NCBI RefSeq assembly: GCF_002379085.1
Contig: NZ_NBZW01000004.1
Coordinates: forward strand, 62,001-126,000
DNA length: 64,000 bases
Direction: 5' to 3'
Source of the DNA: Polaromonas sp. AET17H-212
GTDB lineage: Bacteria; Pseudomonadota; Gammaproteobacteria; Burkholderiales; Burkholderiaceae_C
This document shows, one piece after another, positions 1 through 39,100 of this stretch. Made by a program: the position numbers and the translations under genes. The first letter of the stretch is position 1, and each line of letters starts with the position of its first letter. The notes under the pieces are model-generated. The model saw nothing but the letters and a program-made list of their open reading frames with translations. It made no database searches and was not told the DNA's origin.

Positions 1-677
1 CAGGTGTCGCCGGAGTTGGTGCGCAGGCGTGGCTGGGTGAGCACGTCCTCTTTGCCATTCGGCCCTTCCAGCGACCAGGTGTCGCCGCCCGACCAGTAGG
101 TGTAGGCAATCACCGTGTGCGCGGCTATGTCTGCCAGCGTGCGGATCGCGGTGTGCCGCTTCAGGTAGCCGGGTGCGGCACACAGCACCAGGCGCGTGGT
201 TGCCAGGCGCCGCGCCACCAGGCTCGAATCTGGCAGGCGTGTGATGCGGATGGCGAGGTCATACCCTTCATCGACCAGGTCCACCACGCGGTCGGACAGG
301 GTCACGTCCAGGTTGACCTGCGGGTACTGCTGCAGGAAGCGGCCCCACAGCGGCGCCAGGTGCAGGTTGCCGAAGGTCACCGGGGCATTGATGCGCAGGC
401 GGCCGACCGGCTGCACGGTGTTGGCGCTGGCGGCAGCGTTGGCCTCGGCCAGATCGTCGAGGATCTTGAGGCTGCGCTCGGCGTACGCCACACCGGCTTC
501 GGTCAGCGACTGGCGGCGTGTGGTGCGGTTGAGCAGGCGCACGCCCAGGCGCGCCTCCAGTTCCAGTACCAGGCGCGACACCATGGCTTTGGAGCTGCCC
601 AGCCGCTCGCCCGCCTTGACAAAGCTGCCGCTCTGCACGACGGCCACAAAGGCTTCCATCTGGCGAAACTGGTCCAT
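1..677 (-). CDS. LysR-family transcriptional regulator (3' end cut by window edge)
   Basis: The first 225 residues of a LysR-type regulator are visible. They begin MDQFRQMEAFVAVVQSGSF, a winged helix-turn-helix whose recognition part reads AGERLGSSKAMVSRLVLELE, followed by RLLNRTTRRQSLTEAG, then the start of the LysR substrate-binding domain (VGRLRINAPVTFG). The C-terminal third lies outside the window. It is divergent from the dioxygenase gene at 827 with a 149-bp gap holding a palindrome, the usual layout for a LysR regulator of its neighbour. The effector is unknown. The family call is secure; the target gene is inference. Confidence 0.9.
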   Translation of the reverse strand, partial: MDQFRQMEAFVAVVQSGSFVKAGERLGSSKAMVSRLVLELEARLGVRLLNRTTRRQSLTEAGVAYAERSLKILDDLAEANAAASANTVQPVGRLRINAPVTFGNLHLAPLWGRFLQQYPQVNLDVTLSDRVVDLVDEGYDLAIRITRLPDSSLVARRLATTRLVLCAAPGYLKRHTAIRTLADIAAHTVIAYTYWSGGDTWSLEGPNGKEDVLTQPRLRTNSGDT

Positions 678-720
678 GGCGGGGCTTGGGTGAAGGGGAA
701 ACAAGAGGGGTGGAAAACTG

Positions 721-745
721 GATTGTCTTTCATATAAGGACAATC
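721..745. promoter_or_regulatory. Near-perfect palindrome, candidate LysR operator
   Basis: GATTGTCTTT (721-730), a 5-bp spacer, and AAGGACAATC (736-745) form a 10-bp inverted repeat with one mismatch. It sits between the divergent LysR and dioxygenase start codons. LysR proteins bind imperfect dyads near divergent promoters. A second AT-rich dyad, ATAAAT/ATTTAT, follows at 751-767 and may overlap the promoter of the dioxygenase gene. Confidence 0.5.
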
Positions 746-826
746 AATCAATAAATCTGATATTTATCTTTCATGGGTAGACAACTACATTGGACGGATC
801 CATCCCTGTCGTCAAGGAGTCCTGCC

Positions 827-1672
827 ATGTCTGCCCATTCCCTTTCTGCCGTGTCTAGCGCTGCCCTTCCTGCCCTGTTCATCTCGCACGGGGCGCCGCT
901 GTTTGCCACCGAGCCGGGGACGAGCGGGCCGGCGTTGACGCGCTGGGGCCAGGCCCTGAAAGAGACGACCGGGCCGGGCCTGCGCGGCATCGTGATCATG
1001 TCGCCGCACTGGATGGCGCGAACGCCCTCGGTGATGACCAACCCCGCGCCGGCCACCTGGCACGACTTTGGTGGTTTTCCGCAGGCCCTGTATGCCTTGC
1101 ACTATCCGGCGCCCGGCCATCCGGAACTGGCGCGTGAGGTGCTGGGCTTGTTGCAGGGCGCGGGGATTGCCGCGCAGGGCGATGACCAGCGGCCGCTGGA
1201 CCACGGCGCCTGGGTGCCGCTGATGCATTTGTTTCCGGACGCCAGCGTACCGGTGGTGCAGGTGGCGCTGCCGGTGTCTTATGGCCCGGCCGAAACCTAT
1301 GCCCTGGGCCAGGCCCTGGCCGGCCTGCGCGAGCGCGGCGTGCTGGTGGTCGGCTCGGGCAGCATGACGCACAACCTGGGCGAATTTTTTGGCGGTGCGC
1401 GCGCGCCGGCGCCTTATGTCGTCGCTTTCAGCCGCTGGGTCGAGTCCACGCTGGAAAGCGGTGATTTTTCTGCCATGCTGGACTACCGGCGCCAGGCCCC
1501 CGGCGCGCAGCGCGCGCACCCGAGCGAAGACCACTTCCTGCCGATCTTCTTCGCGCTGGGGGCGGCAGGTTGGGGCGGCCCACAGGGTGCGCGGCCCGAC
1601 TACCTGAGCCGGGAGGTGATGTACAGCATGCTGGCGATGGACGCTTTTGCCCTTTCCGCGCCCGCGCAATAA
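827..1672 (+). CDS. DODA-type extradiol aromatic ring-opening dioxygenase (YgiD-like)
   Basis: A 281-residue protein of the class III extradiol / 4,5-DOPA dioxygenase family, a small cytoplasmic non-haem metal enzyme. Visible family features are the N-terminal LFISHGAPLF, a conserved His in SPHWM, and PLDHGAWVPLMHLFPDA, which carry metal-ligand and active-site histidines. The start at 827 is chosen because AAGGAG lies 8 bp upstream; an in-frame ATG at 773 lacks a ribosome site and adds an unlikely leader. It is divergent from the LysR gene and probably controlled by it. The physiological substrate cannot be read from sequence. Confidence 0.87.
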   Translation: MSAHSLSAVSSAALPALFISHGAPLFATEPGTSGPALTRWGQALKETTGPGLRGIVIMSPHWMARTPSVMTNPAPATWHDFGGFPQALYALHYPAPGHPELAREVLGLLQGAGIAAQGDDQRPLDHGAWVPLMHLFPDASVPVVQVALPVSYGPAETYALGQALAGLRERGVLVVGSGSMTHNLGEFFGGARAPAPYVVAFSRWVESTLESGDFSAMLDYRRQAPGAQRAHPSEDHFLPIFFALGAAGWGGPQGARPDYLSREVMYSMLAMDAFALSAPAQ

Positions 1673-1720
1673 AGACCAATGAAGACAGCTGTTCCTGTTT
1701 GCCCAACCCGGAGTTCCCTG

Positions 1721-2386
1721 ATGACAATGGATTTGCCCCTTTCTTTCCTGCACCGTCCCGCGGCGGCGGGTACGGCCCAGCCCTGGCTGCTGGTGCTGAT
1801 GCATGGCGTCGGCAGCAATGAGGATGACCTGTTCAGCCTGGCGCCGCACGTGCCGACCAATTTCCACGTGCTGAGCCTGCGCGCCCCGAACGTGATGGGT
1901 GCCCGCGCCTATGCCTGGTTCGAGTTTGGCGTGACGCCGCAGGGTGAACGAGTCATCAACGAAGCACAGGAAGTCGCCAGCCGGCAGACGGTCGCGCAGA
2001 CCGTGGCCGCGGCGGCAACGCAACTGGGCATCGCTCCCGGGCGTGTGGTGGTCGGCGGTTTCAGCCAGGGCGGCATCATGGCGCTCTCGCTGCTGCTGAC
2101 GCAACCCGCGCTGCTGCAGGGGGCGATGGTGATGCACAGCCGCCTGCTGCCGCAGGTGCTGCCTTTGCTGGCGCCGGCCGAGGCGCTGCAGGGCCGGCAG
2201 CTCTGGCTCAGCCACGGCACGCGCGACCAGGTGATCCCGCTGGCCAATGCGCATGCAATTCGCTCGCTGGCGCAAACACTGCCGATCACGCTGCGTTATG
2301 CCGACTACCCGAGTGCGCACGAGATCATCCAGCAGGAGCTGGGCGAGGCGATGGCCTGGTTGCAGCAGCTCGCTGCCGCGGGCTGA
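1721..2386 (+). CDS. Alpha/beta-hydrolase, phospholipase/carboxylesterase family (YpfH-like)
   Basis: A 221-residue serine esterase of the phospholipase/carboxylesterase family. The nucleophile is in GFSQGG, the acid in GTRDQVIP and the histidine in SAHE, the expected triad order. LMHGVGSNEDD near the N-terminus is the oxyanion loop. There is no signal peptide, so it is cytoplasmic. It starts 48 bp after the dioxygenase stop on the same strand and is probably co-transcribed. ATG at 1721 is preferred over 1679 because the family begins just before the first strand; no strong ribosome site is seen. Substrate unknown. Confidence 0.85.
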   Translation: MTMDLPLSFLHRPAAAGTAQPWLLVLMHGVGSNEDDLFSLAPHVPTNFHVLSLRAPNVMGARAYAWFEFGVTPQGERVINEAQEVASRQTVAQTVAAAATQLGIAPGRVVVGGFSQGGIMALSLLLTQPALLQGAMVMHSRLLPQVLPLLAPAEALQGRQLWLSHGTRDQVIPLANAHAIRSLAQTLPITLRYADYPSAHEIIQQELGEAMAWLQQLAAAG

Positions 2387-2417
2387 GGACCCTGCGCCCC
2401 GGTGCCGGGCTGGGTGT

Positions 2418-2481
2418 GCTATTTAAAAGATAGCTGCTGGCGCCCGTCCTGTCTGGGCTGATGGCCGATTTGGTGTGATGT
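2418..2481. repeat. Dispersed Comamonadaceae-type palindromic repeat (full copy)
   Basis: A core palindrome, GCTATTTAAAAGATAGC (2418-2434), is followed by a conserved tail, TGCTGGCGC then CCCGT and GGGC, then GGCCGATTT. Copies with the same core recur at 6731-6790, 13697, 26733, 29139, 31359, 39692-39745, 48761, 53276 and 56491. It lies between convergent genes. No coding content is seen. Confidence 0.7.
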
Positions 2482-2507
2482 CTGGGCCGAACCGGTGTCT
2501 GCCGGAC

Positions 2508-2915
2508 TCAGAGCCACACGCCGCTGCCGGGCATCTGCATCTGGATGGCATCCGGCCCGCTGCCCACCAGCACGAAGGCACCGATCACCCAGCTCAACAC
2601 GGCGATGAAGATGCTGGCAAAAAAGGCCGTCCAGAAGCCCGAGACCTTGAAGCCCCGCACCAGCGCGGAGACCAGCAAAATCATCAGGGCATTGATGACC
2701 AGCAGGAACAGGCCGAAGGTCAACAAGGTCAGCGGCAAGGTCAGGACAATCAGCAGCGGCTTGACAATGGCATTCGCAAAACCGAGCAGCAGGGCCGAGA
2801 TGACCAGCGACGAGGTGTCGTCAAAGCTGATTCCCCGGAAGACGCGACTGGCCAGCCAGAGCGACAGCGCGGTGATGGCCCAGTGCAGAAGGAAAAGGAT
2901 CAGGTGGTCGAACAT
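2508..2915 (-). CDS. Phage holin family IV-like small membrane protein
   Basis: A 135-residue, very hydrophobic protein with four predicted transmembrane helices: LILFLLHWAITALSLWLA, SLVISALLLGFANAIV, LLTFGLFLLVINALMILLVS and FWTAFFASIFIAVLSWVIGA. The motif ALLLGFANAIVKPLLIVLTLP matches the family annotated as mycobacterial-type phage holin superfamily IV, which is common in bacterial chromosomes and not evidence of a prophage here. The start at 2915 (MFDHLI) matches the family N-terminus; an upstream ATG at 2951 adds a charged leader. Function in the inner membrane is unknown. Confidence 0.8.
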   Translation of the reverse strand: MFDHLILFLLHWAITALSLWLASRVFRGISFDDTSSLVISALLLGFANAIVKPLLIVLTLPLTLLTFGLFLLVINALMILLVSALVRGFKVSGFWTAFFASIFIAVLSWVIGAFVLVGSGPDAIQMQMPGSGVWL

Positions 2916-3018
2916 GGCAGATGAGCGGGTGGGTGCATGGCCGGGAATCATACCGGGCTGTCCCTGACCAGCGGCTGTACCTGTTTTTCGTGATCATTTG
3001 TGAGAAGGAGCGCCAGCG

Positions 3019-3522
3019 ATGATTCACCAGCTGCATTCAGACGATTGGGTGGCCAACGGCGCCGAGACGGCGATCTGCCGGCTGCCCTTCACCGTGGCCC
3101 AGGCGGAAGGACAATTTGGTCTTGCATTTGCGCAAGGGGAGCCCGGCACGCCCGGCCAACCCGGGCAGTGGCACGCAGTCATTGAACACGATGGCCAGGT
3201 CTACCTTTTGCATGCGGCGCGTGAAGCCCCGCCACCCGACCATCTGCTGGAGGTGTTGGCCCGGGGCGACGTTCGTTATCCGGCGCCGCTGGTGGCCAAG
3301 ATCTGCGCCGCGTTTCGCCTGGCACCGCAAGACCTGCCGTGGGTGTCCCAAGATCTGGGTGAACGCCGCTGGCTGCTCTGGCGACGCGATGACAACAACA
3401 ACCGTGCGGTCATGGGCTACTTCAAGGACAGGCAGGTGGCCGAACGTGTGGCGCAGAGGTACACCGACCGGGGGCACAAGCAGCTGTATGGTGTGGACGA
3501 GGCGCCGGCTGACGCGCCGTGA
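3019..3522 (+). CDS. Hypothetical cytoplasmic protein, 167 aa
   Basis: Starts at ATG 3019 after a good ribosome site (AGAAGGAG at 3002-3009). No signal peptide or membrane segment. It is a soluble protein rich in Ala, Gln and Arg with a basic stretch (GERRWLLWRRDDNNN) and an Asp/Ala/Pro-rich C-terminus. I do not recognise a domain. It runs tail-to-tail with the MBL-fold gene, with only 3 bp between stop codons. Codon use resembles neighbours, so it is probably a resident gene. Confidence 0.7.
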   Translation: MIHQLHSDDWVANGAETAICRLPFTVAQAEGQFGLAFAQGEPGTPGQPGQWHAVIEHDGQVYLLHAAREAPPPDHLLEVLARGDVRYPAPLVAKICAAFRLAPQDLPWVSQDLGERRWLLWRRDDNNNRAVMGYFKDRQVAERVAQRYTDRGHKQLYGVDEAPADAP

Positions 3523-3525
3523 TCT

Positions 3526-4536
3526 TCAGACTTCTTGCCGCGCCGCCTCCATCTCCGCGCGCAGTTCGTCTTCGCGGCCGGCATAGCGGGGTGAGAAATG
3601 GAAGGGAATCACCAGCCTGGCGCCGGCCGCACGCGCGATGTGGCCGGCCTGCCGTGCGGTGAGATGCAGCTTGCGGGCGCCATGGCCGGCGTCCTGGTCG
3701 AGGAACACACATTCGATGAACAGCTGCGTGGCATCGGCCACCAGGGCCGTGATGCGTTGCACGTTGTCCGGGTGAAAGGCGACGTCGGTCACGTAGCCGA
3801 TCTTCTCGCCCGGCACCAGCCGCAGGACCCCGGCCTTGAGTTCTCCCAGAGGCAACACGCGTTCATGCGCGCCGTGGCGGTCGCGCCAGAAGGCACGCAC
3901 TGGCGTGGTGTCGGGTTCGCCCTGCATCACTGCCGCCTTGAGGTCCTTCAGCCAGGGCCCGACGGCCAGTCCGAGCCCGGCCAGCCGGTTCTTCCAGACG
4001 TTGACGTGGACTTTTTCCTCGACCGCAAAGCCGAGGCAGGGCGTCCCATGGTCGAGAAACGCCGCGCGAACGCGGAAACCCGGCTCATCGAGCAACACCC
4101 CGCCGTGCAACTGCCGCGGCGCGAGGGGCTCCGGCTGGAAATGCCGATGGCAGCGCAGGCGCGTGCCCCGGGCCTGCCAGGCGGCGTCGATCTCCCAGAC
4201 ATCGATCACGAAGTCGCCGGGATAGTTGTCAACCAGGTTCCAGGTGTAGGCGGCAAGCTTGTGCCCGACCTGCGCCGTAAAACCGGGCGGGCCGTACAGG
4301 CGGATGTGTTTGTGACGGCCCAGGCAGAGGCGAAGCAGCCGGTCGAAACCGTAGAAGTGGTCCATGTGGGTGTGCGTGACAAACACATCCGAGATCCGCA
4401 GTATCTTTTTGGCCGGCAGCACCGTGAGGTCGCCCAGATCGAACAGCAGCGCCCGCTTCTCGAACATGAAATCAACATACAGCCCGGCGTCGTCCAGCGG
4501 GTTGTTGACGAGTTCAGTGCTGAAGGTGGAGCGCAT
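3526..4536 (-). CDS. Metallo-beta-lactamase-fold hydrolase, ribonuclease Z-like
   Basis: A 336-residue MBL-fold enzyme. The metal-binding motif is HTHMDHFYGFD (H-x-H-x-D-H), and LLFDLGDLTVLPAKKILRIS preceding it resembles RNase Z / ElaC-like proteins. Later histidines occur in FLDHGTP and IPFHFSPRY, fitting the remaining zinc ligands. The start at 4536 (MRSTFSTELVNNP) is preferred; ATG at 4584 would add 16 unsupported residues. The divergence from true tRNase Z means the substrate is uncertain; it may be an orphan nuclease or phosphodiesterase. There is no operon partner. Confidence 0.8.
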   Translation of the reverse strand: MRSTFSTELVNNPLDDAGLYVDFMFEKRALLFDLGDLTVLPAKKILRISDVFVTHTHMDHFYGFDRLLRLCLGRHKHIRLYGPPGFTAQVGHKLAAYTWNLVDNYPGDFVIDVWEIDAAWQARGTRLRCHRHFQPEPLAPRQLHGGVLLDEPGFRVRAAFLDHGTPCLGFAVEEKVHVNVWKNRLAGLGLAVGPWLKDLKAAVMQGEPDTTPVRAFWRDRHGAHERVLPLGELKAGVLRLVPGEKIGYVTDVAFHPDNVQRITALVADATQLFIECVFLDQDAGHGARKLHLTARQAGHIARAAGARLVIPFHFSPRYAGREDELRAEMEAARQEV

Positions 4537-4844
4537 GGCGGAGGCCTTGGGCTGGGAGGTTGGCTCATTATCCCGCTTGTGCACGGCCAGGAGCGTCGAT
4601 GTCGCGTGGATGCTGCATTTGGCCCCTGGCGACCATGCCGGCTAACGGAAACCCCACCTGATGCAGAGCAACCTTCCCGGTGCTGAGGCTATAGTGCTCC
4701 TACCATGCGCGCTCGCGCATCTGATCCAGCAAGCGAGTGGACATCAGCGGAGGAGTGCCGGATTTCATGGGAAATTTATAAGTGTTTATTTGTACGGCAT
4801 ATCCATGGGTAGCCGAGGCTGCAAGCCACTTTCAGGAGAAAGTA
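4537..4844. other. Intergenic leader of the cassette island
   Basis: About 308 bp without a convincing gene. An ORF at 4661-4888 overlaps the next gene in another frame and has no supporting features. The last 80 bp are AT-rich (around TTTATAAGTGTTTATTTG at 4775) and could hold a promoter for the small gene at 4845. I looked for an integron attI site or a GTTRRRY core here and found none. Confidence 0.4.
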
Positions 4845-5078
4845 ATGGCCAGAATATCGAACACGGGCCAGCAAGAAAAACTGGATGAGAAAGAATACTG
4901 GGAATATCAAGCGAAGCACCGCGCTATTCGCGCCAAGTACGACCCTAGCAATGAATGGAACGAAGCCACATCAGTGCCGCGCGAATACCTGACGGAGATT
5001 CACGATCTCAACCTTCAGCACGGCAGCATGCTGCAGCGTCGCAATGGATGGACCGCCGAAGATTTCGAAGATCAATGA
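4845..5078 (+). CDS. Small hypothetical protein, first gene of the cassette island
   Basis: A 77-residue acidic, hydrophilic protein starting MARISNTGQQEKLDEKEYWE and ending WTAEDFEDQ. ATG 4845 has a strong ribosome site (AGGAGAAAG) just upstream. No signal peptide or membrane segment; the charged helical N-terminal half might mediate protein contacts. I do not recognise a family. Its stop lies 8 bp before an attC-like site, as expected of a gene-cassette ORF. Base composition is lower in GC than the neighbouring chromosome, consistent with transfer. Confidence 0.65.
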   Translation: MARISNTGQQEKLDEKEYWEYQAKHRAIRAKYDPSNEWNEATSVPREYLTEIHDLNLQHGSMLQRRNGWTAEDFEDQ

Positions 5079-5085
5079 TGGTGAT

Positions 5086-5145
5086 GCCTAACTACCCACT
5101 TCACCCCGACGCGCTGACGCGCGCGGGTGGGCGCGAACGTTAGGC
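5086..5145 (+). other. attC-like integron recombination site 1 (60 bp)
   Basis: GCCTAAC (5086-5092) fits the R'' consensus RYYYAAC and GTTAGGC (5139-5145) fits R' GTTRRRY. The two are perfectly complementary. Between them CCCAC and GTGGG form an inner arm, with a GC-rich tip (CGCGC-TGA-CGCGC), giving the imperfect hairpin expected of an attC. The orientation puts the R' crossover 6 bp before the next gene's start codon, the usual cassette layout. Confidence 0.75.
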
Positions 5146-5150
5146 TGTGT

Positions 5151-5726
5151 ATGGACGCGATTCGTTTGCGTGAAGCAGCAAGACGAGAGTACCGTGATCC
5201 TGTGCCGTTTTTGAGACGCTTGCGGCGCATTGAGGAACGGATCCTGACGGTGACGATCGATCCCGAGATAAGGACGCTCCGGACGAACAAACTCAAAGAG
5301 TGGCGTGAGGCCAGGCTTGGAGCGCTGTTTTGCCATGGCTTCAGTGAGCGAACCGGACTGAAAGTCTTCTTCTCAAAAGGTGAGTTCGAGGATGCTGATT
5401 TCGTCTCGACCTGGATCGAAGACGATGTTCGGCACTTCGCGCCGGTTCAGATAAAGGAGCTAGTACCCGAGGAGAGGAACGCGAGTGCAACCTTCGATGC
5501 AGTGGTCCATGGGCTGTCGAAGTACACCGGCGCCAATGACCTCACGGTTCTGATCCACGTGAATAGAAGAATCCACTTCGATCCCACTTCGGTCACACTG
5601 CCGCGGCAACTTCCTATTGCAGCGCTCTGGGTCCTAGCCTGCCTAGATCCTGCGCAGGCCGAATGGGCGATATGGGGGAATCTTCTCGAGGAAGCGGAGG
5701 GCACGAGGTTTGTGTACCCAGCCTAA
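5151..5726 (+). CDS. Cassette-borne hypothetical protein, possible PD-(D/E)XK-type fold
   Basis: A 191-residue soluble protein starting MDAIRLREAARREYRDPVPF. The start is ATG 5151, immediately after the attC core GTTAGGC; a GTG at 5127 lies inside the attC and is rejected. No known family is recognised. The segment EDADFVSTWIEDDVRHFAP followed by VQIKEL, a D...QxK pattern on predicted strands, is reminiscent of PD-(D/E)XK nucleases; this is weak inference. The stop codon TAA is embedded in the next attC core (GCCTAAC), a hallmark of compact cassettes. No ribosome site is evident, also common in cassettes. Confidence 0.75.
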   Translation: MDAIRLREAARREYRDPVPFLRRLRRIEERILTVTIDPEIRTLRTNKLKEWREARLGALFCHGFSERTGLKVFFSKGEFEDADFVSTWIEDDVRHFAPVQIKELVPEERNASATFDAVVHGLSKYTGANDLTVLIHVNRRIHFDPTSVTLPRQLPIAALWVLACLDPAQAEWAIWGNLLEEAEGTRFVYPA

Positions 5727-5806
5727 CAAGGCAACGCGGACGCCCAAAGTCGATCCGCAGCTGCGCCGCTCCTTTTCTTGTTTGCCGGTCACGTCCGACG
5801 TTAAGC
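5721..5806 (+). other. attC-like integron recombination site 2 (86 bp)
   Basis: GCCTAAC (5721-5727) and GTTAAGC (5800-5806) match RYYYAAC and GTTRRRY and are complementary except for one position. Inside, CGGACG near the left end pairs with CGTCCG near the right end, consistent with the inner L boxes of an attC hairpin. The site overlaps the stop codon of the upstream gene. Site 1 and site 2 bound one complete cassette of about 660 bp (5140-5800). Confidence 0.7.
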
Positions 5807-5816
5807 AGCTTCAAGA

Positions 5817-5975
5817 ATGGCGAAGCAACCACGCTCCGAGAAGTCGGCTGAGTTCGACGCGTTATTGGAAATCCTTTCGCATTTGTACCCCGAGGAAGGC
5901 GCCGCCGCCATTCGAAGCCAGATCCGGCAACGGGTGCGTTTAACGGGTCTATCCTACGGACCGGCAAGCCGCTGA
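5817..5975 (+). CDS. Short ORF after second attC, possible truncated cassette gene
   Basis: A 52-codon ORF begins at ATG 5817, 10 bp after the attC core, and encodes MAKQPRSEKSAEFDALLEIL then SHLYPEEGAAAIRSQIRQRV and ends GLSYGPASR. The amphipathic helical look and position argue for a real cassette ORF. An R''-like GTTTAAC lies inside it at 5938-5944, but no GTTRRRY partner follows before the resident gene at 6511, so the cassette may be truncated at its 3' end. No ribosome site is clear. Function unknown. Confidence 0.4.
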   Translation: MAKQPRSEKSAEFDALLEILSHLYPEEGAAAIRSQIRQRVRLTGLSYGPASR

Positions 5976-6058
5976 AGCCCCCATCGGCCAGATTCGGCCA
6001 TTCGGGTCCGCAGAACGTCCGGTTTGCGGAAGAGAGCAAGGCCGCGAGAACGACGCCA

Positions 6059-6511
6059 TCAGCAAGTGACCAGATCCGTATGCCCGAAGCCCTGGGTGTA
6101 ATCAAGGACGGAGATGACCGCGGGTGTGACGCGGAAGATGCGGACCTCGTCCGGCTCCGGCATCTTCATCGGCAGGGGTTTTGCCTCCGGGTATTTCAGC
6201 GGCAGCATGCGCAGGACTTTCTCCGCTTCGGCCCGGTCGGTCACCGCCTGCGCGTGGGCGGCCATCGACAGGCCGGTGATGGCCATCAGGTCCGCCGTGT
6301 CGTCATCGATGGTCAGCGAGAGCCGATTGTCCCGCGCCAGGTTGTTTGCCTTCTGGCTGTCCAGCCCGCAAAGAAAATAAAGCGTCAGGCCCTCGTTCAC
6401 ATAGCCGACCGTCGTGGCCTGGGGCCAGCCATCGGGCCGCAGCGTCGCCACCGTCATGATGCGATGCTGGTCCAGCAGCGCCAGGATTTTCCGCTTGATG
6501 TCGTCGTTCAT
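6059..6511 (-). CDS. Pyridoxamine 5'-phosphate oxidase-family protein
   Basis: A 150-residue split-barrel flavin-binding protein of the PNPOx-like family. The N-terminal ALLDQHRIMTVATLRPDGWP is the typical first strand pair, followed by QATTVGYVNEGLTLYFLCG. Such proteins bind FMN or F420 or haem and act as small oxidoreductases; specific chemistry is not deducible. GTGACC before the ATG gives only a weak ribosome site. It forms the right border of the cassette island and looks resident by codon use. It is probably transcribed alone. Confidence 0.82.
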   Translation of the reverse strand: MNDDIKRKILALLDQHRIMTVATLRPDGWPQATTVGYVNEGLTLYFLCGLDSQKANNLARDNRLSLTIDDDTADLMAITGLSMAAHAQAVTDRAEAEKVLRMLPLKYPEAKPLPMKMPEPDEVRIFRVTPAVISVLDYTQGFGHTDLVTC

Positions 6512-6730
6512 GGGTCACCTCCACAATCGTCAAAAGGGAAAGTTCGACGACATTCTGGGCTGGCATGGCCGCGCGGCCTTGATCGCCGTCAAGGGCTGAC
6601 GACATCGGGTCGGGTTCGCCCGCTGGCGCAGTGACCGTGACCGGCCGCTCCGTGTGGGGCAGGTGGCCTCCCACCCGCCTGGCCATCGGGCGTCAGGCGG
6701 CAGCGCGATTGGCTACCACCTCCGGCTTCA

Positions 6731-6790
6731 AGTGAAATCGGCCTCCAACCCTTTTAAGACGGGCGGAGACTGCTATTGAATCAGTAGCAA
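6731..6790. repeat. Dispersed palindromic repeat (full copy, inverted)
   Basis: The core GCTATTGAATCAGTAGC (6772-6788) is preceded by GAAATCGGCCTCCAACCC and GGGCGGAGACT, matching the tail of the copy at 2418 in opposite orientation. It occupies the 314-bp gap between the PNPOx-like gene and gcvP. The rest of this gap (6512-6730) shows nothing I can assign. Confidence 0.65.
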
Positions 6791-6818
6791 AAAGGCCCGG
6801 GGCTGCGGGCGCCCGGGA
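6789..6818 (-). terminator. Rho-independent terminator of the gcvTHP operon
   Basis: On the minus strand just after the gcvP stop, CCCGGG and CCCCGGG pair around a GC-rich loop and are followed by a run of five T. The T-run merges with the repeat core. Confidence 0.65.
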
Positions 6819-6825
6819 CGCTGGT

Positions 6826-9720
<2,895 letters not shown>

Positions 9721-9742
9721 GGCGGTTTCCAGGATTCGTTGG

Positions 9743-9807
9743 CCCCGAGCTTGTCGAAGGGGCAGTGAACAGTGAGGCAAGACTTCGACAGGCTCTGTCC
9801 GAACGGT
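9743..9807. repeat. REP-like repeat between gcvH and gcvP
   Basis: GAGCTTGTCGAAGGGGC and, downstream, CTTCGACAGGCTCTGTCCGA plus ACGG form two facing half-elements of the common proteobacterial TTCGACAGGCTCA-type repeat. A related half-element is embedded in alaS (37608-37637). It separates gcvH from gcvP within the operon and may act as an mRNA stabiliser or processing site. Confidence 0.65.
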
Positions 9808-9826
9808 GGGGCGGGAGGGCTGCTAT

Positions 9827-10195
9827 TTACGCTGTTGCGGAAAAGGTGGTGTAGCTGGTCTCATCCATCAGCGCGTCCAGTTGCGACTTGTCAGACAGCT
9901 TCACCTTGAAGAACCAGCCGGCGCCCAGCGGGTCGGTGTTGGCCAGCGAGGGGTCGTCGCGCAGGGCTTCGTTGACTTCGGTGACCTCGCCGCTGATGGG
10001 CATGTAGACGTCGGCCGCGGCCTTGACCGATTCGACGACACCGGCGACCTCTTTTTGCGCCAGCGTGCTGCCGACGGAAGGCAGGTCGACAAACACCACG
10101 TCGCCGAGTGCGTCCTGCGCGTGGGGGGTGATGCCGACGGTGGCGATGTCGCCGTCAACGTTGATCCATTCGTGGTCTTCGGTGTACTTGATCAT
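9827..10195 (-). CDS. gcvH: Glycine cleavage system H-protein
   Basis: A 122-residue lipoyl carrier starting [20 protein letters not shown]. The lipoylated lysine is in [15 protein letters not shown]. The length is typical (about 125-130). The start at 10195 follows GGAGAA; the longer ORF start is rejected. It lies 25 bp after gcvT and 106 bp before gcvP in one operon. It shuttles the aminomethyl group from GcvP to GcvT in the cytoplasm. Confidence 0.97.
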
Positions 10196-10220
10196 GGGGT
10201 TCTCCAGAATAATAAAAATT

Positions 10221-11384
10221 TCAACCGCGGAAATAGCGATTCGGAACAAAAGGCATGGGGCTGACTTCCATGGGCACAGGTTTGCCACGCACGATGGCGT
10301 TCACGCGTGTACCGATGGCCGAGAACTCAGGCTTCACGTAGCCCATGGCCACGGGTTTGTCGATGCTGGGGCCGAGCAGGCCGCTGGTGACTTCGCCCAT
10401 CGGCGTGCCGTCCAGGCTTTGCAGGGCCGTGTGGTCGCGCACGGGAATGCGCTCCAGCGCCACCAGGCCCACGCGTTTGCGCGTCAGCGCGGCGGGGTCG
10501 GCCAGTTGCGCCAGCACCCTGTCGGCACCCGGAAAACCGCCGGCCCGTGCACCGCCGGTGCGGCGCACTTTCTGGATCGCCCAGTTGAGGCTGGCTTCGA
10601 CCGGTGTGGTGGTGGTGTCGATGTCGTTGCCGTAGAGGCACAGGCCGGCTTCGAGCCGCAGCGAATTGCGCGCGCCCAGGCCGACCGGTTTGACTTCGGG
10701 CTGGGCCAGCAGGGCGCGGGCCAGCGTGTCGGCCTGCGCGGCAGGCACGGAAATCTCGAAACCGTCTTCGCCGGTGTAGCCGCTGCGGGTGAGAAAGCAG
10801 TCGCAACCGGCGACGCTAAAACGCCCGCCGGTCATGAACACCAGCTTCTCGACGCCGGGGGCTAGGCGCGACAGCGCGGTGACGGCCTGCGGGCCCTGCA
10901 GTGCCAGCAGCGCCATCTCGGGCATGGGAATGACCTCGCAGCGCGTGCCGATATTTGCCTGAATATGCGCGATGTCGCCGACCTTGCAGGCGCCGTTGAC
11001 GATGACGAAGATGTCGCCGCCGTTCAGGTAGTCGCGGTTGAAGAACATCAGGTCGTCGATGATGCCGCCGTCCTCATTGAGCAGCAGGCCGTAGCGCTGC
11101 TTGCCGGCGGGCAGGTCGATCACATCGACCGGGATCAGGGTTTCCAGCGCGGCCGCGGCGCCGGCACCGACCAGGCGCAGCTGGCCCATGTGCGAGACAT
11201 CAAACAGGCCGGCGGCCTGGCGCGTGTGGTGGTGCTCGGCCATCAGGCCGGCCGGGTATTGCACCGGCATGGCATAACCGGCAAACGGCACCATGCGCGC
11301 GCCCAGTTCCAGGTGCAGGTCGTAAAGCGGTGTTTTCAGCAGTTCAGGGGCGATGGCGGACAAGGCGTTCTCCGGGGCAAACAT
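10221..11384 (-). CDS. gcvT: Glycine cleavage system aminomethyltransferase, T-protein
   Basis: A 387-residue T-protein that transfers the methylene group to tetrahydrofolate and releases ammonia. Visible signatures are [20 protein letters not shown] near the N-terminus, [10 protein letters not shown], and [10 protein letters not shown] in the folate-binding region. It is the first gene of the operon. The leader between its start and about 11630 contains a tandem glycine riboswitch, so expression should respond to glycine. The start MFAPENAL is the first in-frame ATG. Confidence 0.96.
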
Positions 11385-11416
11385 ACAACATGGCCATAAG
11401 CCATGGGCTGCCCCTG

Positions 11417-11628
11417 CTGTCCTCTTTACCTGAGAGATTCGCCTGGCGATGCAGGTTTGCTCCTTCGGTGGACCACCTCGAGGATGGCCTCTCTCCAGTA
11501 GGGAACGCCGCCCGGAAAATGATCGCCCGGGTGGCGGTTGCCAGTCCTTTTGCCTGAGCGTTCAGCGCACCATTGGGGTGCCGCATGCGCCTTCGGCGGT
11601 TTTCGCGAGGAAAACTCTCTCCTGACCG
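11417..11628 (-). promoter_or_regulatory. Tandem glycine riboswitch controlling gcvTHP
   Basis: Read on the minus strand, the first aptamer (about 11628-11541) opens with GGAGAGAG, contains GCCGAAGGCGCA and closes with CAGGCAAAAGGACTGG. The second (about 11497-11417) opens with GGAGAGAG, contains CCGAAGGAGCAAACC and closes with CTCAGGTAAAGAGGACAG. These are the conserved blocks of glycine aptamers. A short linker of about 43 nt joins them. The leader ends about 30 bp before the gcvT ATG. The expected action is glycine-dependent activation of the cleavage operon. Confidence 0.92.
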
Positions 11629-11713
11629 CGTAAGTGTAGCCCAAGGCCGGGACAGCCGGCCCGCAGGCGCAGCGCGCTGTCGAGGCAACGCCCCATGTTT
11701 CGGGCGCGTGGAT

Positions 11714-11813
11714 CTTTTCAAGCAGGGGCCGCGGAGCCGGCTTTGCCGGTCCGCAGGCGCAGCGCCCCCTCGGGGGGCAGCGACCCACACGCAGTGGGGG
11801 AGCGTGGGGGCCC
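11714..11813. repeat. About 100-bp GC-rich intergenic repeat, copy 1
   Basis: This block (CAAGCAGGGGCCGCGGAGCC ... GCAGGCGCAGCG ... CTCGGGGGGCAG ... GTGGGGGCC) recurs nearly intact at 52732-52827, and a partial copy is at 11655-11675. It has internal complementary arms (CCGGCTTTGCCGG). It lies at the 3' side of dctM. No coding role is seen. Confidence 0.7.
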
Positions 11814-11816
11814 TAT

Positions 11817-13094
11817 TTACTTGGCATAGACCAGATCGCGCAGGGTCAGCGCGACGGCCGGGAAATAAGTGATCACCATCAGGCAGGCCAGGATCACCAG
11901 CACGAACGGGATCAGGTGGGTGATGATCCGGTCCAGCGATATTTTGGCGACAGTGCAGGCCGCAAACAGGTTGACGCCGAACGGCGGCGTGATCATGCCG
12001 AGCGCCAGGTTCACGACCATCACCAGGCCGAAATGCACCGGGTCGATGCCGAAGTGCATGGCCACGGGGGCCAGGATGGGCGCCAGCACGATGATGGCGG
12101 CGCTGGTTTCGATGAACATGCCGATGATGAACAGCGCAGCGTTGACACCCAGCAGGAAGAGGGCGGGGGACTGCAGCACGGCTTCCAGCCAGCGGCCAAT
12201 CGCATCGGGCACGCCGGCACGCGTGATCAGGAAGGCGAACAGCCCGGCATTGGCGATGATGAACATGATGACGGCGCTGGAGATCACCGACTTGCGCAGC
12301 ACCAGCGCCAGCGTCGGCAGCTTGATTTCGCGGTAGATCACCCCACCGACGATCAGCGCGTAGAACACCGCCACGGCCGCCGCCTCGGTCGGCGTGAAGA
12401 TGCCGCCATAGATGCCGCCAAGAATGATGACCGGCATCAGCAGGGCCCAGCCGGCCTGCAAGGTGGCCTTGAAGAAACCCAGGCGCCCGTCGCCGTCGTT
12501 CTTGCCCCAACCCTTGATCTTGCAATACACATAGACAAACGCCATCAGCGACAGGCTGATCAGGATGCCCGGCCCGACGCCGGCGATGAACAGCTCACCG
12601 ATCGAGACCTCGGCGCTGACGCCGTACAGGATCAGCGGAATCGAGGGTGGAATGATCACGCCGAGTTCGGCGCTGGTGGCCTGCAGGGCCGCGGCGTAGC
12701 TGGTGGGGTAGCCGTGTTTGATCAGGGCGGGAATCAGGATCGCGCCGACCGCAAACGTGGTGGCCACCGACGAGCCGGAGACCGCGGCAAAAATCATGCA
12801 GGTCAGCACGCAGGTCATGGGCAGGCCGCCCTGCACGCCGCCGACAATGCTTTTCGCAAACTCGACCAGGCGGCGCGAAATGCCGCCGGTCTCCATCAGG
12901 TTGCCGGCCAGGATGAAAAACGGAATGGCCGCCAGCGGAAACTTGTTGATGGCGTTGAACATCTCCTTGACGGAGATCAGCATGTGGGCGTTGGACGCCT
13001 GGATGCCGAAGATGGAAGCCAGTCCGATGGACACGGCAACGGAGATCGTCAGTGCAAAACACACGATCATGGTGGTCAACATGACGGCGGTCAT
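11817..13094 (-). CDS. dctM: TRAP transporter large permease (DctM)
   Basis: A 425-residue membrane protein with about 12 hydrophobic segments, the normal size for the ion-coupled large permease of a tripartite ATP-independent periplasmic transporter. It starts MTAVMLTTMIVCFALTISVA; FPLAAIPFFILAGNLMETGG and FGVNLFAACTVA are typical DctM stretches. With DctQ it forms the inner-membrane complex that imports a carboxylate delivered by DctP. It is the third gene of the dctP-dctQ-dctM order, starting 49 bp after dctQ. The cargo is probably a sugar acid or related carboxylate, judged from the adjacent dehydrogenase. Confidence 0.94.
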   Translation of the reverse strand: MTAVMLTTMIVCFALTISVAVSIGLASIFGIQASNAHMLISVKEMFNAINKFPLAAIPFFILAGNLMETGGISRRLVEFAKSIVGGVQGGLPMTCVLTCMIFAAVSGSSVATTFAVGAILIPALIKHGYPTSYAAALQATSAELGVIIPPSIPLILYGVSAEVSIGELFIAGVGPGILISLSLMAFVYVYCKIKGWGKNDGDGRLGFFKATLQAGWALLMPVIILGGIYGGIFTPTEAAAVAVFYALIVGGVIYREIKLPTLALVLRKSVISSAVIMFIIANAGLFAFLITRAGVPDAIGRWLEAVLQSPALFLLGVNAALFIIGMFIETSAAIIVLAPILAPVAMHFGIDPVHFGLVMVVNLALGMITPPFGVNLFAACTVAKISLDRIITHLIPFVLVILACLMVITYFPAVALTLRDLVYAK

Positions 13095-13143
13095 TGTGCA
13101 ATCCCCGGAAAAAAGTTGTTGTCAGTGGTGTTGATGATGCAGC

Positions 13144-13638
13144 TCATGTCGCCGTCTCCAGTTCTTCGCGCTGCGGATCCAGCAGGTTGCCGATGATGCC
13201 GATCACGCAGAACATGCCGCCTATCGGCATGGCCACATAACCCCAGAACATGGAAATGGACTCCAGGCCCGCCATGGACTGCACCTGCCCGCGGATGGCG
13301 TAGTCCCAGCCCCACCAGATGATGACGCCGATCAGGGCCAGGGCGGCCAGGCAGACCACCCAGTCGAGGAGGCGCTTGACCTTGATCGGGCTCCAGCGGT
13401 ACAGCACATCGACGCTGACCATGGCGCCCTGGCGGAAGGCCGCCGGTATGCCCATGAAGACCATCCAGATCAGCGACAGGCGGATCAGGATCTCGGTCCA
13501 CTCGGCCGGCTGCTCGAGCACGAAGCGCGTCACGATCTGGAACATGCCCAGCGAAGATGCAATCACCATCATGAGGCAGGCCACCAGCGTGGCAAACCCC
13601 GTGGTCCAGCGTTCGATTTCGAGAAAGGTGTTTTTCAT
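13144..13638 (-). CDS. dctQ: TRAP transporter small permease (DctQ)
   Basis: A 164-residue protein with four hydrophobic helices (TGFATLVACLMMVIASSLG, LIRLSLIWMVFMGIPAAF, LLDWVVCLAALALIGVIIWW and MFWGYVAMPIGGMFCVIGII), the DctQ pattern. The W-T-E-x-x-x-R motif (EWTEILIRLSLIW) is characteristic. It follows dctP after 87 bp that contain a stable hairpin, which would lower dctQM expression relative to the binding protein. It works with DctM in the inner membrane. Confidence 0.93.
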   Translation of the reverse strand: MKNTFLEIERWTTGFATLVACLMMVIASSLGMFQIVTRFVLEQPAEWTEILIRLSLIWMVFMGIPAAFRQGAMVSVDVLYRWSPIKVKRLLDWVVCLAALALIGVIIWWGWDYAIRGQVQSMAGLESISMFWGYVAMPIGGMFCVIGIIGNLLDPQREELETAT

Positions 13639-13662
13639 GGGAATACCGGTTCTACAAGGAAA

Positions 13663-13691
13663 ACGCCCGCAAGCCTAATGGCTGCGGGCGT
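13663..13691 (-). terminator. Intercistronic hairpin between dctP and dctQ
   Basis: ACGCCCGCA (13663-13671) and TGCGGGCGT (13683-13691) form a perfect 9-bp stem with an 11-nt loop; on the minus strand it is followed by TTTCCTTG. In TRAP and ABC operons such hairpins after the binding-protein gene attenuate read-through and protect the upstream mRNA. Confidence 0.65.
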
Positions 13692-13696
13692 GTTCA

Positions 13697-13713
13697 GCTA
13701 CAAAAAAAGTAGC
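13697..13713. repeat. Dispersed palindromic repeat core
   Basis: GCTACAAAAAAAGTAGC, the palindromic core of the dispersed repeat, sits 12 bp past the dctP stop codon and next to the intercistronic hairpin. No extended tail is evident. Confidence 0.55.
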
Positions 13714-13725
13714 GAACGAGGCCGC

Positions 13726-14712
13726 TTACTTGACGCTGCGGATCTTGTCGATGTTGGCCTTGCCGAACTGCTTTTCAAATTCGGCGTTCACGGGTGCCAG
13801 GGCGGCGACGAACTTGGCCTTGTCGACGTTGTCGATCACGGTCATGCCCTTGGCGCGCAGGTCGGCCACGCCCTTGGCGTCGTCTTCGTCGACACGGGCG
13901 CGGTTGGCCTTGGTGCCTTCAGCGGCAGCTTCGAGGAAGGCCTTCTTGTCGGCAGCGCTGAGTTTGTCGAAGACGGCCTTGTTCATCACCCAGATGCAGG
14001 GCGAGTAGACGTGGCCGGTCAGCGACAGGTGTTTCTGGACCTGGTCAAACTTGGACGCAATGATGACCGACAGCGGGTTTTCCTGGCCGTCAACCGTGCC
14101 CTGCTGCAGAGCGGTGAACACCTCGGGGAAAGCCATGGGGGTGGTGATGATGCCGAAGCCCTTGTAGGCTGCAATGTGCACCGGATTTTCCATGGTGCGC
14201 ATTTTCAGGCCCTTCAGGTCCTCGGGCACCTTCACGTCACGCTTGCTGTTGGTCATGTGGCGGAAACCATTTTCGCCCCAAGCCAATGCCTTGAAGCCCT
14301 TGGCTTCGAACTTGACGAGCAGGTCCTGGCCGATCGGGCCGTCCAGCACCGCACGTGCGTGGGCCTTGTCGCGGAACAGGAAAGGCACGTCGAGAATCTT
14401 GGTTTCCGGCACGAAGTTGGGGACCGGGCCGGTCGACGAGAAAGCCAGTTCCTGGGTGCCCAGCTGCACGGCCTCGATGGACTCGCGCTCGCCGCCGAGG
14501 GAGCCGTTGTAGAAGGTCTGGACCTTGTAGCGGCCACCGGTGCGCTTTTCCACTTCCTTGGCGAAGGTGTCGATGGCCACGCCCTGGTGGGAGTTCTGCG
14601 ACGTCGAGATGCTGATCTTCATGGTCGTCTGCGCTGCTGCACCAGCTACCAGGCCGAGTGCCAGCGTCATGCCCAGGGCGAGCCGGGTCAGCGTGGGTTT
14701 GAAAAAAGTCAT
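13726..14712 (-). CDS. dctP: TRAP transporter periplasmic substrate-binding protein (DctP family)
   Basis: A 328-residue periplasmic binding protein with a clear signal peptide (hydrophobic LALGMTLALGLVAGAAAQ, cleavage after AAA or AQ). The mature part starts TTMKISISTSQNSHQGVAID. The arginine in LKGLKMRTMENPVH corresponds to the conserved carboxylate-binding Arg of DctP proteins, and FPEVFTALQQGTVDGQENPL is the family signature. The start at 14712 follows GAGGAGACA. The gene leads the transporter operon, 86 bp downstream of the dehydrogenase gene; an operator-like palindrome lies in that gap. The ligand is unknown but probably a sugar-acid type carboxylate. Confidence 0.94.
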   Translation of the reverse strand: MTFFKPTLTRLALGMTLALGLVAGAAAQTTMKISISTSQNSHQGVAIDTFAKEVEKRTGGRYKVQTFYNGSLGGERESIEAVQLGTQELAFSSTGPVPNFVPETKILDVPFLFRDKAHARAVLDGPIGQDLLVKFEAKGFKALAWGENGFRHMTNSKRDVKVPEDLKGLKMRTMENPVHIAAYKGFGIITTPMAFPEVFTALQQGTVDGQENPLSVIIASKFDQVQKHLSLTGHVYSPCIWVMNKAVFDKLSAADKKAFLEAAAEGTKANRARVDEDDAKGVADLRAKGMTVIDNVDKAKFVAALAPVNAEFEKQFGKANIDKIRSVK

Positions 14713-36457: not shown

Positions 36458-39100
36458 ATGAGCACACCCACTTTCACCGTCGCCGACATCCGCAAGAGCT
36501 TCCTGGACTTTTTCGCGTCCAAGGGCCACACCGTGGTGCCGTCGAGCTCGCTGGTGCCGGGCAACGACCCGACCCTGATGTTCACCAATTCGGGCATGGT
36601 GCAGTTCAAGGATGTGTTCCTCGGCACCGACAAGCGCTCCTATGTGCGCGCCGCGTCGGTGCAGGCCTGCCTGCGCGCCGGCGGCAAGCACAACGACCTG
36701 GAAAACGTCGGCTACACCGCGCGCCACCACACCTTTTTCGAGATGCTGGGCAACTGGAGTTTTGGCGACTACTTCAAGCGCGAATCGCTGAAGTGGGCCT
36801 GGGAACTGCTGACCGAGGTCTACAAGCTGCCGGCCGACAAGCTGTGGGCCACGGTGTACATCGACGACGACGAGGCCTACGACATCTGGACGAAAGAAAT
36901 CGGCCTGCCACCCGAACGCGTGGTGCGCATCGGCGACAACAAGGGCGCCAAATACGCAAGCGACAACTTCTGGATGATGGCCGACACCGGCCCCTGCGGC
37001 CCCTGCAGCGAGATTTTCTTCGACCACGGTCCCGAGATTGCCGGCGGCCCGCCCGGCTCGCCCGAGCAGGACGGCGACCGCTACATCGAGATCTGGAACA
37101 ACGTGTTCATGCAGTTCGACATGCAGCCCGACGGCTCGGTCAAGCCGCTGCCGGCGCCCTGCGTGGACACCGGCATGGGCCTGGAGCGCCTGGCCGCCAT
37201 CCTGCAGCATGTGCACAGCAACTACGAAATCGACATCTTTGACGCGCTGATCAAGGCGGCCTCGCGCGAGACCGGCGAGAAGGACCTCGGCAACAAATCC
37301 CTGTTTGTCATCGCCGACCACATCCGCGCCACCGCCTTCCTGGTCAGCGACGGTGTCAACCCGTCCAACGAAGGCCGCGGTTATGTGCAGCGCCGCATCA
37401 TCCGCCGTGCGATCCGCCACGGCTACAAGCTGGGCAAGAAAACGCCGTTTTTCCATAAGCTGGTGGCGGACCTGGTCAAGCTGATGGGTGAGGCCTATCC
37501 CAAGCTCAGGACCGACGAGGCGCGCATCACCGCCGTGCTCAAGGCCGAGGAAGAACGTTTCTTTGAGACGCTGGAAATCGGCATGACCATCCTGGACACG
37601 GCCCTGGCCCCTTCGACGGGCTCAGGACATGCTCCGAAAATGCTGCCCGGTGACGTGGCCTTCAAGTTGCACGACACCTACGGCTTTCCGCTGGACCTGT
37701 CGGCCGATGTCTGCCGCGAGCGCGGCGTCGAGGTCGACGAGGCCGGTTTCACCGCCGCCATGGACAAACAGAAAAACCAGGCGCGCGCCGCCGGCAAGTT
37801 CAAGATGGACCGCGCGCTGGAATACACCGGCGAAGGCAATACCTTCACGGGTTACGAAGGCCTGGAAGCCAGCGGAAAAATTGTTGCCCTGTATGCCGAC
37901 GGCGTGCCGGTGGTGGCGCTCAAGACCGGCCAGCAGGGCGTGGTGGTGCTGGACCGCACCCCGTTTTACGCCGAAAGCGGCGGCCAGGTGGGCGACCAGG
38001 GCGAACTGGTCAGCGGTTCGGCCCACTTCGAGGTCGGCGACACGCTCAAGATCAAGGCCGATGTGTACGGCCACCACGGCAGCGTGGCGCAGGGCACGCT
38101 CAACGTGGGCGACCATGTGTCGGCACGTGTCAACCCGGCCGTGCGCGCCGCCACCGTGCGCAACCACAGCGCCACCCACCTGATGCACAAGGCCTTGCGC
38201 GAAGTGCTGGGCGACCATGTGCAGCAAAAAGGCTCGCTGGTCGATGCCGATAAAACCCGCTTTGACTTTGCCCACAACGCACCGGTGACCGACGAACAGG
38301 TCCGCGAGATCGAGGCGCGCGTCAACGCCGAGATCCTCGCCAACGCCGCCACCGACGCCAGTGTGATGGACATGGAAGCCGCCCAGAAAACCGGCGCCAT
38401 GATGCTGTTCGGCGAGAAGTACGGTGACAAGGTGCGTGTGCTCAGCATAGGTTCGAGCAAGGAGCTGTGCGGCGGCACCCACGTGGCGCGCACCGGCGAC
38501 ATCGGCCTGTTCAAGATCGTGGCCGAGGCCGGCGTGGCCTCGGGTGTGCGCCGCATCGAGGCGGTGACCGGCGAAAACGCGCTGGCCTACCTGCAGTCCC
38601 TCGAGGATGCGGTCCAGTCAGCGGCCGGCGCGCTCAAGGCCAGCCCTTCCGAGTTGCAGGGCCGCATCGGCCAGGTGCTCGACCAGGTGCGGGCGCTTGA
38701 GAAGGAAGTGGCTGCCCTCAAGGGCAAGCTGGCCTCATCGCAGGGTGACGAGCTGATGGCGCAGGCGGTCGATGTCAAGGGCCTGAAGGTGCTGGCCGCC
38801 AAGCTCGAAGGCGCGGACGCCAAGACCCTGCGCGACACCATGGACAAGCTCAAGGACAAGCTCAAGACCGCGGTCATCGTGCTGGCCGCCGTGGACGGCG
38901 ACAAGGTGCAGATCGCGGCCGGCGTGACCGCTGACAGCGTGGGCAAGGTCAAGGCCGGCGAACTGGTCAACTTCGTCGCCCAGCAGGTGGGCGGCAAGGG
39001 CGGCGGCAAGGCCGACATGGCCATGGCCGGCGGCACCGAGCCTGCCAAACTGCCTGAGGCGCTGGCCTCGGTCCAGGCTTGGGTGGCCGAGCGCGCCTGA
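36458..39100 (+). CDS. alaS: Alanyl-tRNA synthetase
   Basis: An 880-residue class II synthetase. Class motifs occur at the N-terminus ([15 protein letters not shown]), the editing domain zinc ligands are in [11 protein letters not shown] and [11 protein letters not shown], and a C-Ala domain ends the protein. The length is normal. A REP-like repeat (37608-37637) codes for about 10 residues just before the conserved [16 protein letters not shown] block, an in-frame insertion that evidently does not break the enzyme. No clear ribosome site is seen; the N-terminus [19 protein letters not shown] is typical. Confidence 0.97.
37608..37637. repeat. REP-like half-element inside alaS
   Basis: CCCTTCGACGGGCTCAGGAC and GCTCCGAA match the same TTCGACAGGCTC-type repeat found between gcvH and gcvP. 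It is read in frame, coding for [10 protein letters not shown] between TILDTAL and KMLPGDVAF. Confidence 0.7.

Follow-up and report, generated by a model that had tools for sequence, protein, structure and literature searches.

A probable headless chromosomal integron with an integrase relic and a truncated attI site in Polaromonas

A stretch of 64,000 nucleotides from the genome of Polaromonas sp. AET17H-212 (referred to as the window) carries, between positions 4598 and 5975, what is very probably a decayed ('headless') sedentary chromosomal integron. The 5' end of an integrase gene (intI) and the 5' part of an attI site are followed on the opposite strand by a fused first gene, one complete cassette with its attC-like sites and the beginning of a third cassette. 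Clusters of attC sites lacking an integron integrase are known as CALINs, and integron software would probably file the locus under this name. Its features are as follows.

4598–4768, minus strand: intI relic, codons 1–57, with the start ATG at 4768–4766 and a TAG at codon 23 (4702–4700); the rest of the gene is absent
4769–4871, plus strand: 5' part (~103 bp) of the integrase-promoter/attI region, delimited by alignment with the sister genome and relatives
4845–5078, plus strand: p1 (77 aa), its first 9 codons being the attI leader ORF (Shine-Dalgarno sequence AGGAG), the remainder a presumed cassette gene
5086–5145, plus strand: attC1, with R'' GCCTAAC and R' GTTAGGC
5140–5800, plus strand: complete cassette unit, from crossover point to crossover point
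5151–5726, plus strand: p2 (191 aa), a cassette gene of no known family with a weak PD-(D/E)xK nuclease-like fold signal
5721–5806, plus strand: attC2, with R'' GCCTAAC and R' GTTAAGC; weak in the attC model, matching the last attC site of the sister array
5807–5975, plus strand: truncated start of a third cassette, with the ORF p3 (5817–5975, 52 aa) beginning 10 bp past the core

Integrase relic, truncated attI site and first gene

The relic was identified by tblastn (small subject) with the intact IntI proteins of two relatives, of which the 333-aa protein matched positions 4768 to 4598 with 60% identity over residues 1–57 (E 8e-15) and the 335-aa protein matched the same relic with 57% identity over residues 1–60 (E 2e-15). 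A sequence-only reading of this DNA had stated that no integrase gene lies nearby and that the attC cluster is integrase-less. This holds as far as a functional, intact gene is concerned, the best TIGR02249 match in the whole genome reaching 84 bits against a cut-off of 265, in a draft assembly of 86 contigs in which an integrase may lie in a gap. The statement misses the integron stump, namely the 57 intI codons and the partial attI site, which are still in place directly upstream of the array. Sixteen PF00589 matches in the same genome exceed the cut-off; they are other tyrosine recombinases or pieces of them. An 84-aa IntI-like C-terminal piece on contig C6 (42–45% identity at best, one internal TAA) was considered and set aside, since it could come from any tyrosine recombinase and is unconnected.

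The LexA box consensus is CTGTN8ACAG. A LexA-like box in exactly this form was present in 9 of 30 relatives, and the box at the attI site of the window is degenerate (GTGTTTATTTGTACGG). Homology to attI stops abruptly at 4871, and the end of the site with the crossover point G^TT is missing, so that the window has neither the intact intI nor the attI crossover of a complete integron. The box GGCTATAGTG in the intI stub is exact in 17 of the 22 relatives with intI homology. As a candidate promoter it was rejected, because it is also intI coding sequence, no good -35 box was seen, and a consensus scan detected no promoter; no cassette promoter is claimed.

The attI start codon, its Shine-Dalgarno sequence and nine leader codons run in frame into p1. 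Judged from this arrangement, p1 looks like an in-frame leader-cassette fusion that would have been made by a deletion in which the cassette gene's own start codon and core were lost. Among 38 genomes of the genus, p1 matched its own genome (G000) only, and its cassette part, searched in 300 genomes of the order, likewise matched G000 alone; no match to p1 was found on plasmids. As the cassette part had no relatives in the searches made, the evidence for the fusion is the alignment of attI.

attC sites and cassette genes

Two sites with matching cores, spaced 60 and 86 bp and in one orientation, had been claimed in the sequence-only reading, and both cores (GCCTAAC..GTTAGGC at 5086–5145, GCCTAAC..GTTAAGC at 5721–5806), their spacing and their identical polarity were recovered. 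The unit between them, given there as 660 bp, measured 661 bp between crossover points, and its classic cassette layout was borne out, with the ATG of p2 at 5151 located 5 bp past the first core (6 bp in the earlier count) and the TAA at 5724–5726 inside the R'' box of the next site. To be excised in circular form, a cassette needs a 5' core complementary to its own R''. In the p2 cassette, the 5' core (GTTAGGC) and R'' (GCCTAAC) are exact reverse complements of each other. No attC site was found behind p3 in a scan with the attC model.

Taken by itself, the bare core motif is at chance level. When defined as cores at least 6/7 complementary and 35–150 bp apart on the plus strand, pairs occurred twice in the 64 kb. 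First-order Markov simulation of 200 sequences gave 1.10 pairs on average, and 31.5% of the simulated sequences contained at least two. For this reason, a covariance model was built from integrase-linked attC sites. Seventeen sites were chosen (model A1), leaving out pairs remote from IntI and at least L048:6227, L052:11675, L044:8119 and L049:7648; of the seventeen, L043:6712 (misaligned end) and L048:8782 (near-duplicate) were then dropped to give model A2. The resulting 15 attC sites come from six genomes, of which one belongs to the same genus and five to other families of the order, and each lies no more than ~10 kb from an integron integrase; the window's own genome and the sister genome are not among the six. 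One row of the model (L052) comes from G014, a genome later scanned with the same model.

In this model, attC1 scored 30.8 bits on the bottom strand, corresponding to an E value of 5.9e-5 in 153 kb and of 0.0018 genome-wide (4.65 Mb). IntI recombines attC sites as single-strand hairpins of the bottom strand, and the lower score of attC1 on the top strand (19.6 bits) would fit this. attC2 reached 17.5 bits (E 0.11 in 153 kb) and was absent from the genome-wide list at E ≤ 10. The attC character proposed for both sites was thus significant in the model for attC1 and not for attC2. Both sites are probably real cassette boundaries; attC1 is well supported, and attC2, weak by model, has an attC-like placement and is kept in the sister genome. 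The predicted DNA fold energies of the two sites were -18.6 and -17.4 kcal/mol. Rfam returned no attC or other family near them, the two matches in 4500–6100 being far under their gathering scores.

The other matches in the same genome at E ≤ 10 were one on contig C2 (18.8 bits, E 1.6) and two on contig C14, at 31697–31753 (28 bits) and 36740–36799 (40.4 bits), ~5 kb apart (6698–6754 and 11741–11800 of the fetched stretch L094). The 17 kb fetched around the C14 sites yielded no relic of intI or attI at the thresholds used; one IntI match of 36% identity occurred there at E 0.001.

The cassette genes had also been called AT-richer than the chromosome and orphan, and the measurements agree. GC content was 53–59% in 500-base windows over 4501–6000 and 61–70% in those of 1–4500 and 6001–10000, except for 60% at 9751–10250. 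None of p1, p2 and p3 matched a Pfam, NCBIfam or PADLOC family over the cut-off, the sole row being a sub-cut-off match of p1 to BBE (E 0.06).

Homologues of p2 were found in a Polaromonas MAG (74% identity), Methylophilus (53%), a Rugosibacter MAG (48%) and another Rugosibacter MAG (54% over residues 1–84), and more distantly in genome G147 (44%) and on a Spartinivicinus ruber plasmid (39%). Among 299 genomes of the phylum, four had matches, namely the window's own genome, G147 and two weak ones. Three hits of the attC model (E 1e-7, 6e-5 and, for the nearest, 0.013) lie just upstream of the Methylophilus copy (L058). In both Rugosibacter copies (L059 and L060), a GTTRRRY core precedes the start codon by 7 bp, and the stop codon of the L059 homologue lies within an RYYYAAC box, with no full attC site found behind it. 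The homologue in L057 showed no clear core.

The structure of p2 was predicted from four of the seven known sequences (window, L057, L058 and L059) with a pLDDT of 79.8. Foldseek gave no hit at E ≤ 0.001, and Foldseek and VIA-align together gave no clear fold family. The top structural row was PA4535 (Z 7.3, rmsd 4.2, 124 aligned), and several restriction enzymes were matched with Z scores of 3–6, among them PaqCI (Z 5.8, rmsd 3.8, 127 aligned). The PD-(D/E)xK catalytic motif has the form D..(E/Q)xK. Residues D81, D83, Q100 and K102 are invariant in four sequences. The predicted fold of p2 may weakly resemble restriction-type nucleases, which is a lead and not a family call.

Comparison with the sister genome and history of the array

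The product of the left neighbour gene is 94% identical to a protein of G004, a genome of the same genus, and the DNA of the two genomes is 91.8% identical over 3538–4871 and 95.2% identical over 6631–14000. Positions 3538–4871 are contiguous in G004, and the intI truncation junction is therefore common to both. Flanks conserved in relatives without cassette boundaries would have spoken against the earlier reading; the opposite was found, G004 having the same flanks with different cassettes between them. Its attI site is complete up to GTTAGGC and has a regular core-cassette junction. Its array genes, B (237 aa) and C (211 aa), differ from those of the window. No Pfam family was found for B at E ≤ 0.1 (first 236 codons searched), and C is HepT-like with an E value of 0.0027, below the family cut-off. 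The first attC site of G004, between B and C, scored 41 bits.

The last attC site is identical in 72 of 86 columns between the window (attC2) and G004, whose copy is equally weak in the model (17.6 bits), and the first ~56 bp of the third-cassette start are also common to both (48 of 57 columns). In each genome, the 5' core of the last cassette fits its own R'' (GTTAGGC/GCCTAAC in the window, GTTAGAT/ATCTAAC in G004). The rest of the last attC site is 84% identical between the genomes, the average over 90 other attC pairs being 59%; two of these 90 are also 82–84% alike, so that similarity of the attC sites alone is no proof of orthology.

Three further observations concern the surroundings. 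Right after the array end, G004 lacks the stretch 5862–6630 of the window (~770 bp), which contains a minus-strand pyridoxamine-5'-phosphate-oxidase-like (PPOX-family) gene. G004 has a second stub on its contig C43. Two glycine riboswitch aptamers (60 and 55.3 bits) lie at 11407–11634 on the minus strand of the window, upstream of a minus-strand gene cluster including gcvP, an ordinary arrangement.

The most likely history is that loss of the integrase preceded the separation of the two species and that the frozen array then eroded differently in each, the cassette differences arising from different deletions of one longer ancestral array and not from new captures. The truncation of intI to ~57 codons would have occurred in the common ancestor of both species. 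In the window lineage, a deletion would then have taken the attI end together with the 5' end of the first cassette. From an ancestral order of attI, B, p1, p2, C and the third cassette, both arrangements could be derived by three deletions, two of them on the side of the window and one on that of the sister. A deletion that joined two attC sites at the shared CTAACAAG would explain why the last attC sites are alike while the preceding genes differ and the R'' fits the 5' core of each genome's own gene. With no integrase found and no attI crossover point left, the array would be frozen in cis and could be mobilised only through its attC sites by IntI supplied in trans, and the cassette genes would be read as ordinary chromosomal genes from whatever upstream promoter remains.

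The main rival to differential deletion of an ancestral array is a decayed integron that went on gaining cassettes through IntI supplied in trans after its resident integrase had died, the arrays differing by gains. It is considered unlikely, though to be taken seriously. The array genes do differ although the intI truncation is shared, G004 retains a complete attI site with a regular core-cassette junction, and IntI was found over the cut-off in three of the 36 same-genus relatives searched, any of which would suit such gains. The loss of the attI end in the window argues the other way, as do the last attC site and third-cassette start common to both genomes and the consideration that three deletions from one ancestral array could explain both arrangements. 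Two genomes alone cannot separate differential loss from acquisition in trans.

Two explanations that dispense with a local integron fare considerably worse. It is very improbable that the locus is a true CALIN or an attG insertion, in which an integrase acting in trans would have placed the cassettes at an ordinary site of the chromosome that had never housed an integron. Such an origin would suit a genome that contains no intact intI and has the C14 attC sites, which lie without an intI or attI relic in 17 kb at the thresholds used, and attG insertion is described in the literature (PMC12444791); it is opposed by the intI 5' relic and attI region immediately in front of the array, whose strand and order are those of an integron. 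That the two sites are chance hairpins and not attC is barely credible. The motif count at chance and the non-significant score of attC2 can be cited for it, against which stand the model score of attC1 including its genome-wide hit, the cassette layout, the intI/attI relic, the array of the sister and the cassette-like flanks of some p2 homologues. A decayed integron eroded by deletions is the preferred reading.

The attI leader in relatives and comparison with known systems

Scanning of 12 genomes (11 of the genus, one of the order) with the attC model gave matches in all 12 at E ≤ 0.5. Ten of them had matches at E ≤ 0.01, and the best values in G013 and G033 were ~0.44. When positions 4540–4875 of the window (336 bases) were used as a DNA query against 200 genomes of the family, the own one included, they were found in 35 at 52 places, 51 of them outside the own genome. 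Thirty of these 51 places were fetched (L101–L110 and L112–L131), and IntI sequence adjoins the attI region in 22 of them. IntI was present as a one-piece match of at least 331 residues in four loci and in parts only in 18, and was absent from the fetched stretch in eight, among them L122, a short contig; since the stub of the window served as the query that retrieved these loci, the share of stubs is biased upwards. An attC hit was obtained in 22 of the 30 loci (7/10 at E ≤ 1 and 15/20 at E ≤ 0.1), and full-length IntI, attI and attC hits occurred together in L101, L102, L115 and L129.

The crossover G^TT lies at a fixed distance from the leader start in 20 of the 30 relatives, with a start codon (ATG in 9, GTG in 8, CTG in 2, TTG in 1) located 20 codons ahead of it. 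The leader frame contained no stop in any of these 20 loci, and the other two frames had stops in 13/20 and 3/20; 40% of random frames of leader composition are open, and the leader sequences are related to one another. The leader's stop codon is supplied by the core in 16 loci (TAG 11, TGA 4, TAA 1), and the frame runs on in four. In G004, the attI site is one base shorter and its leader continues across the core. The share of open random frames, the relatedness of the sequences and the G004 case all speak against selection on the leader. So does the equal variation among its three codon positions (6.11/6.05/6.16), on account of which selection for the peptide was rejected; what looks kept is the open frame with its spacing, not the residues.

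Two kinds of side observation were made at related loci. A stub on contig C7 of G032 (L098 9066–9490) has IntI residues 1–109 followed directly by 242–279, as if internally deleted, with attC sites alongside. In L103, L109 and L127, nearly identical sequence beginning with GTTGAACTAAACCGCTG is present at the attI crossover and looks like an attI-targeting element; at these loci, the IntI queries match a second tyrosine recombinase with only 32–34% identity.

It is conceivable, if rather doubtful, that the integrons of this family are recurrently beheaded and that the intI 5' end, attI and leader are kept because the stub serves as a permanent expression platform comprising a promoter and an ORF-11-like leader. 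If so, deletions fusing leader and cassette would turn a cassette into an ordinary chromosomal gene, and CALINs would partly be such domesticated ends. The locus forms a readable intermediate, with an intI stump common to two species, an attI site that one of them has in full and the other half-deleted, and arrays that differ between conserved flanks. Surveys relying on full-length IntI alone would, it seems, mislabel loci of this sort, and attI with its leader ORF should be usable for tracing them.

A decayed integron with loss of intI is a known kind of locus, and the one described here has an unusually readable anatomy. Modest novelty lies in the ORF-11-like leader in the attI sites of the family and in the number of headless integrons seen. 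None of the titles and abstract beginnings searched describes a leader of this kind for the family's chromosomal integrons. Cassette fusions have been described in class 1 integrons (PMC4670013) and truncated attI sites inside mobile integrons (PMC12901181), and CALINs are common, degraded integrons being one proposed origin (PMC9024848).

The locus resembles a CALIN, as defined by IntegronFinder, in having attC-like sites in a row, a cassette layout and no intact integrase gene; it differs in the adjacent intI stub and truncated attI site and in that, of its two sites, just attC1 scores strongly in the model used. Xanthomonas has been described as having sedentary chromosomal integrons in which intI is truncated or absent (PMC12444791), and intI pseudogenes are reported to be frequent (PMC2426708). 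As in the cases described there, the integrase is broken and the array left behind, whereas the window belongs to another family, only 57 intI codons are left and attI itself is partly deleted. The closest counterpart of the leader is ORF-11 of the class 1 site attI1, described as a short leader ORF across attI with its own Shine-Dalgarno sequence (PMC8876359). The family leader likewise runs across attI with its own Shine-Dalgarno sequence and takes its stop from the core of the incoming cassette, but comprises 20 codons instead of 11 and is located in chromosomal integrons. The sister attI site has one base less, so that its leader passes through the core, and in the window only the first nine leader codons survive, fused to a gene.
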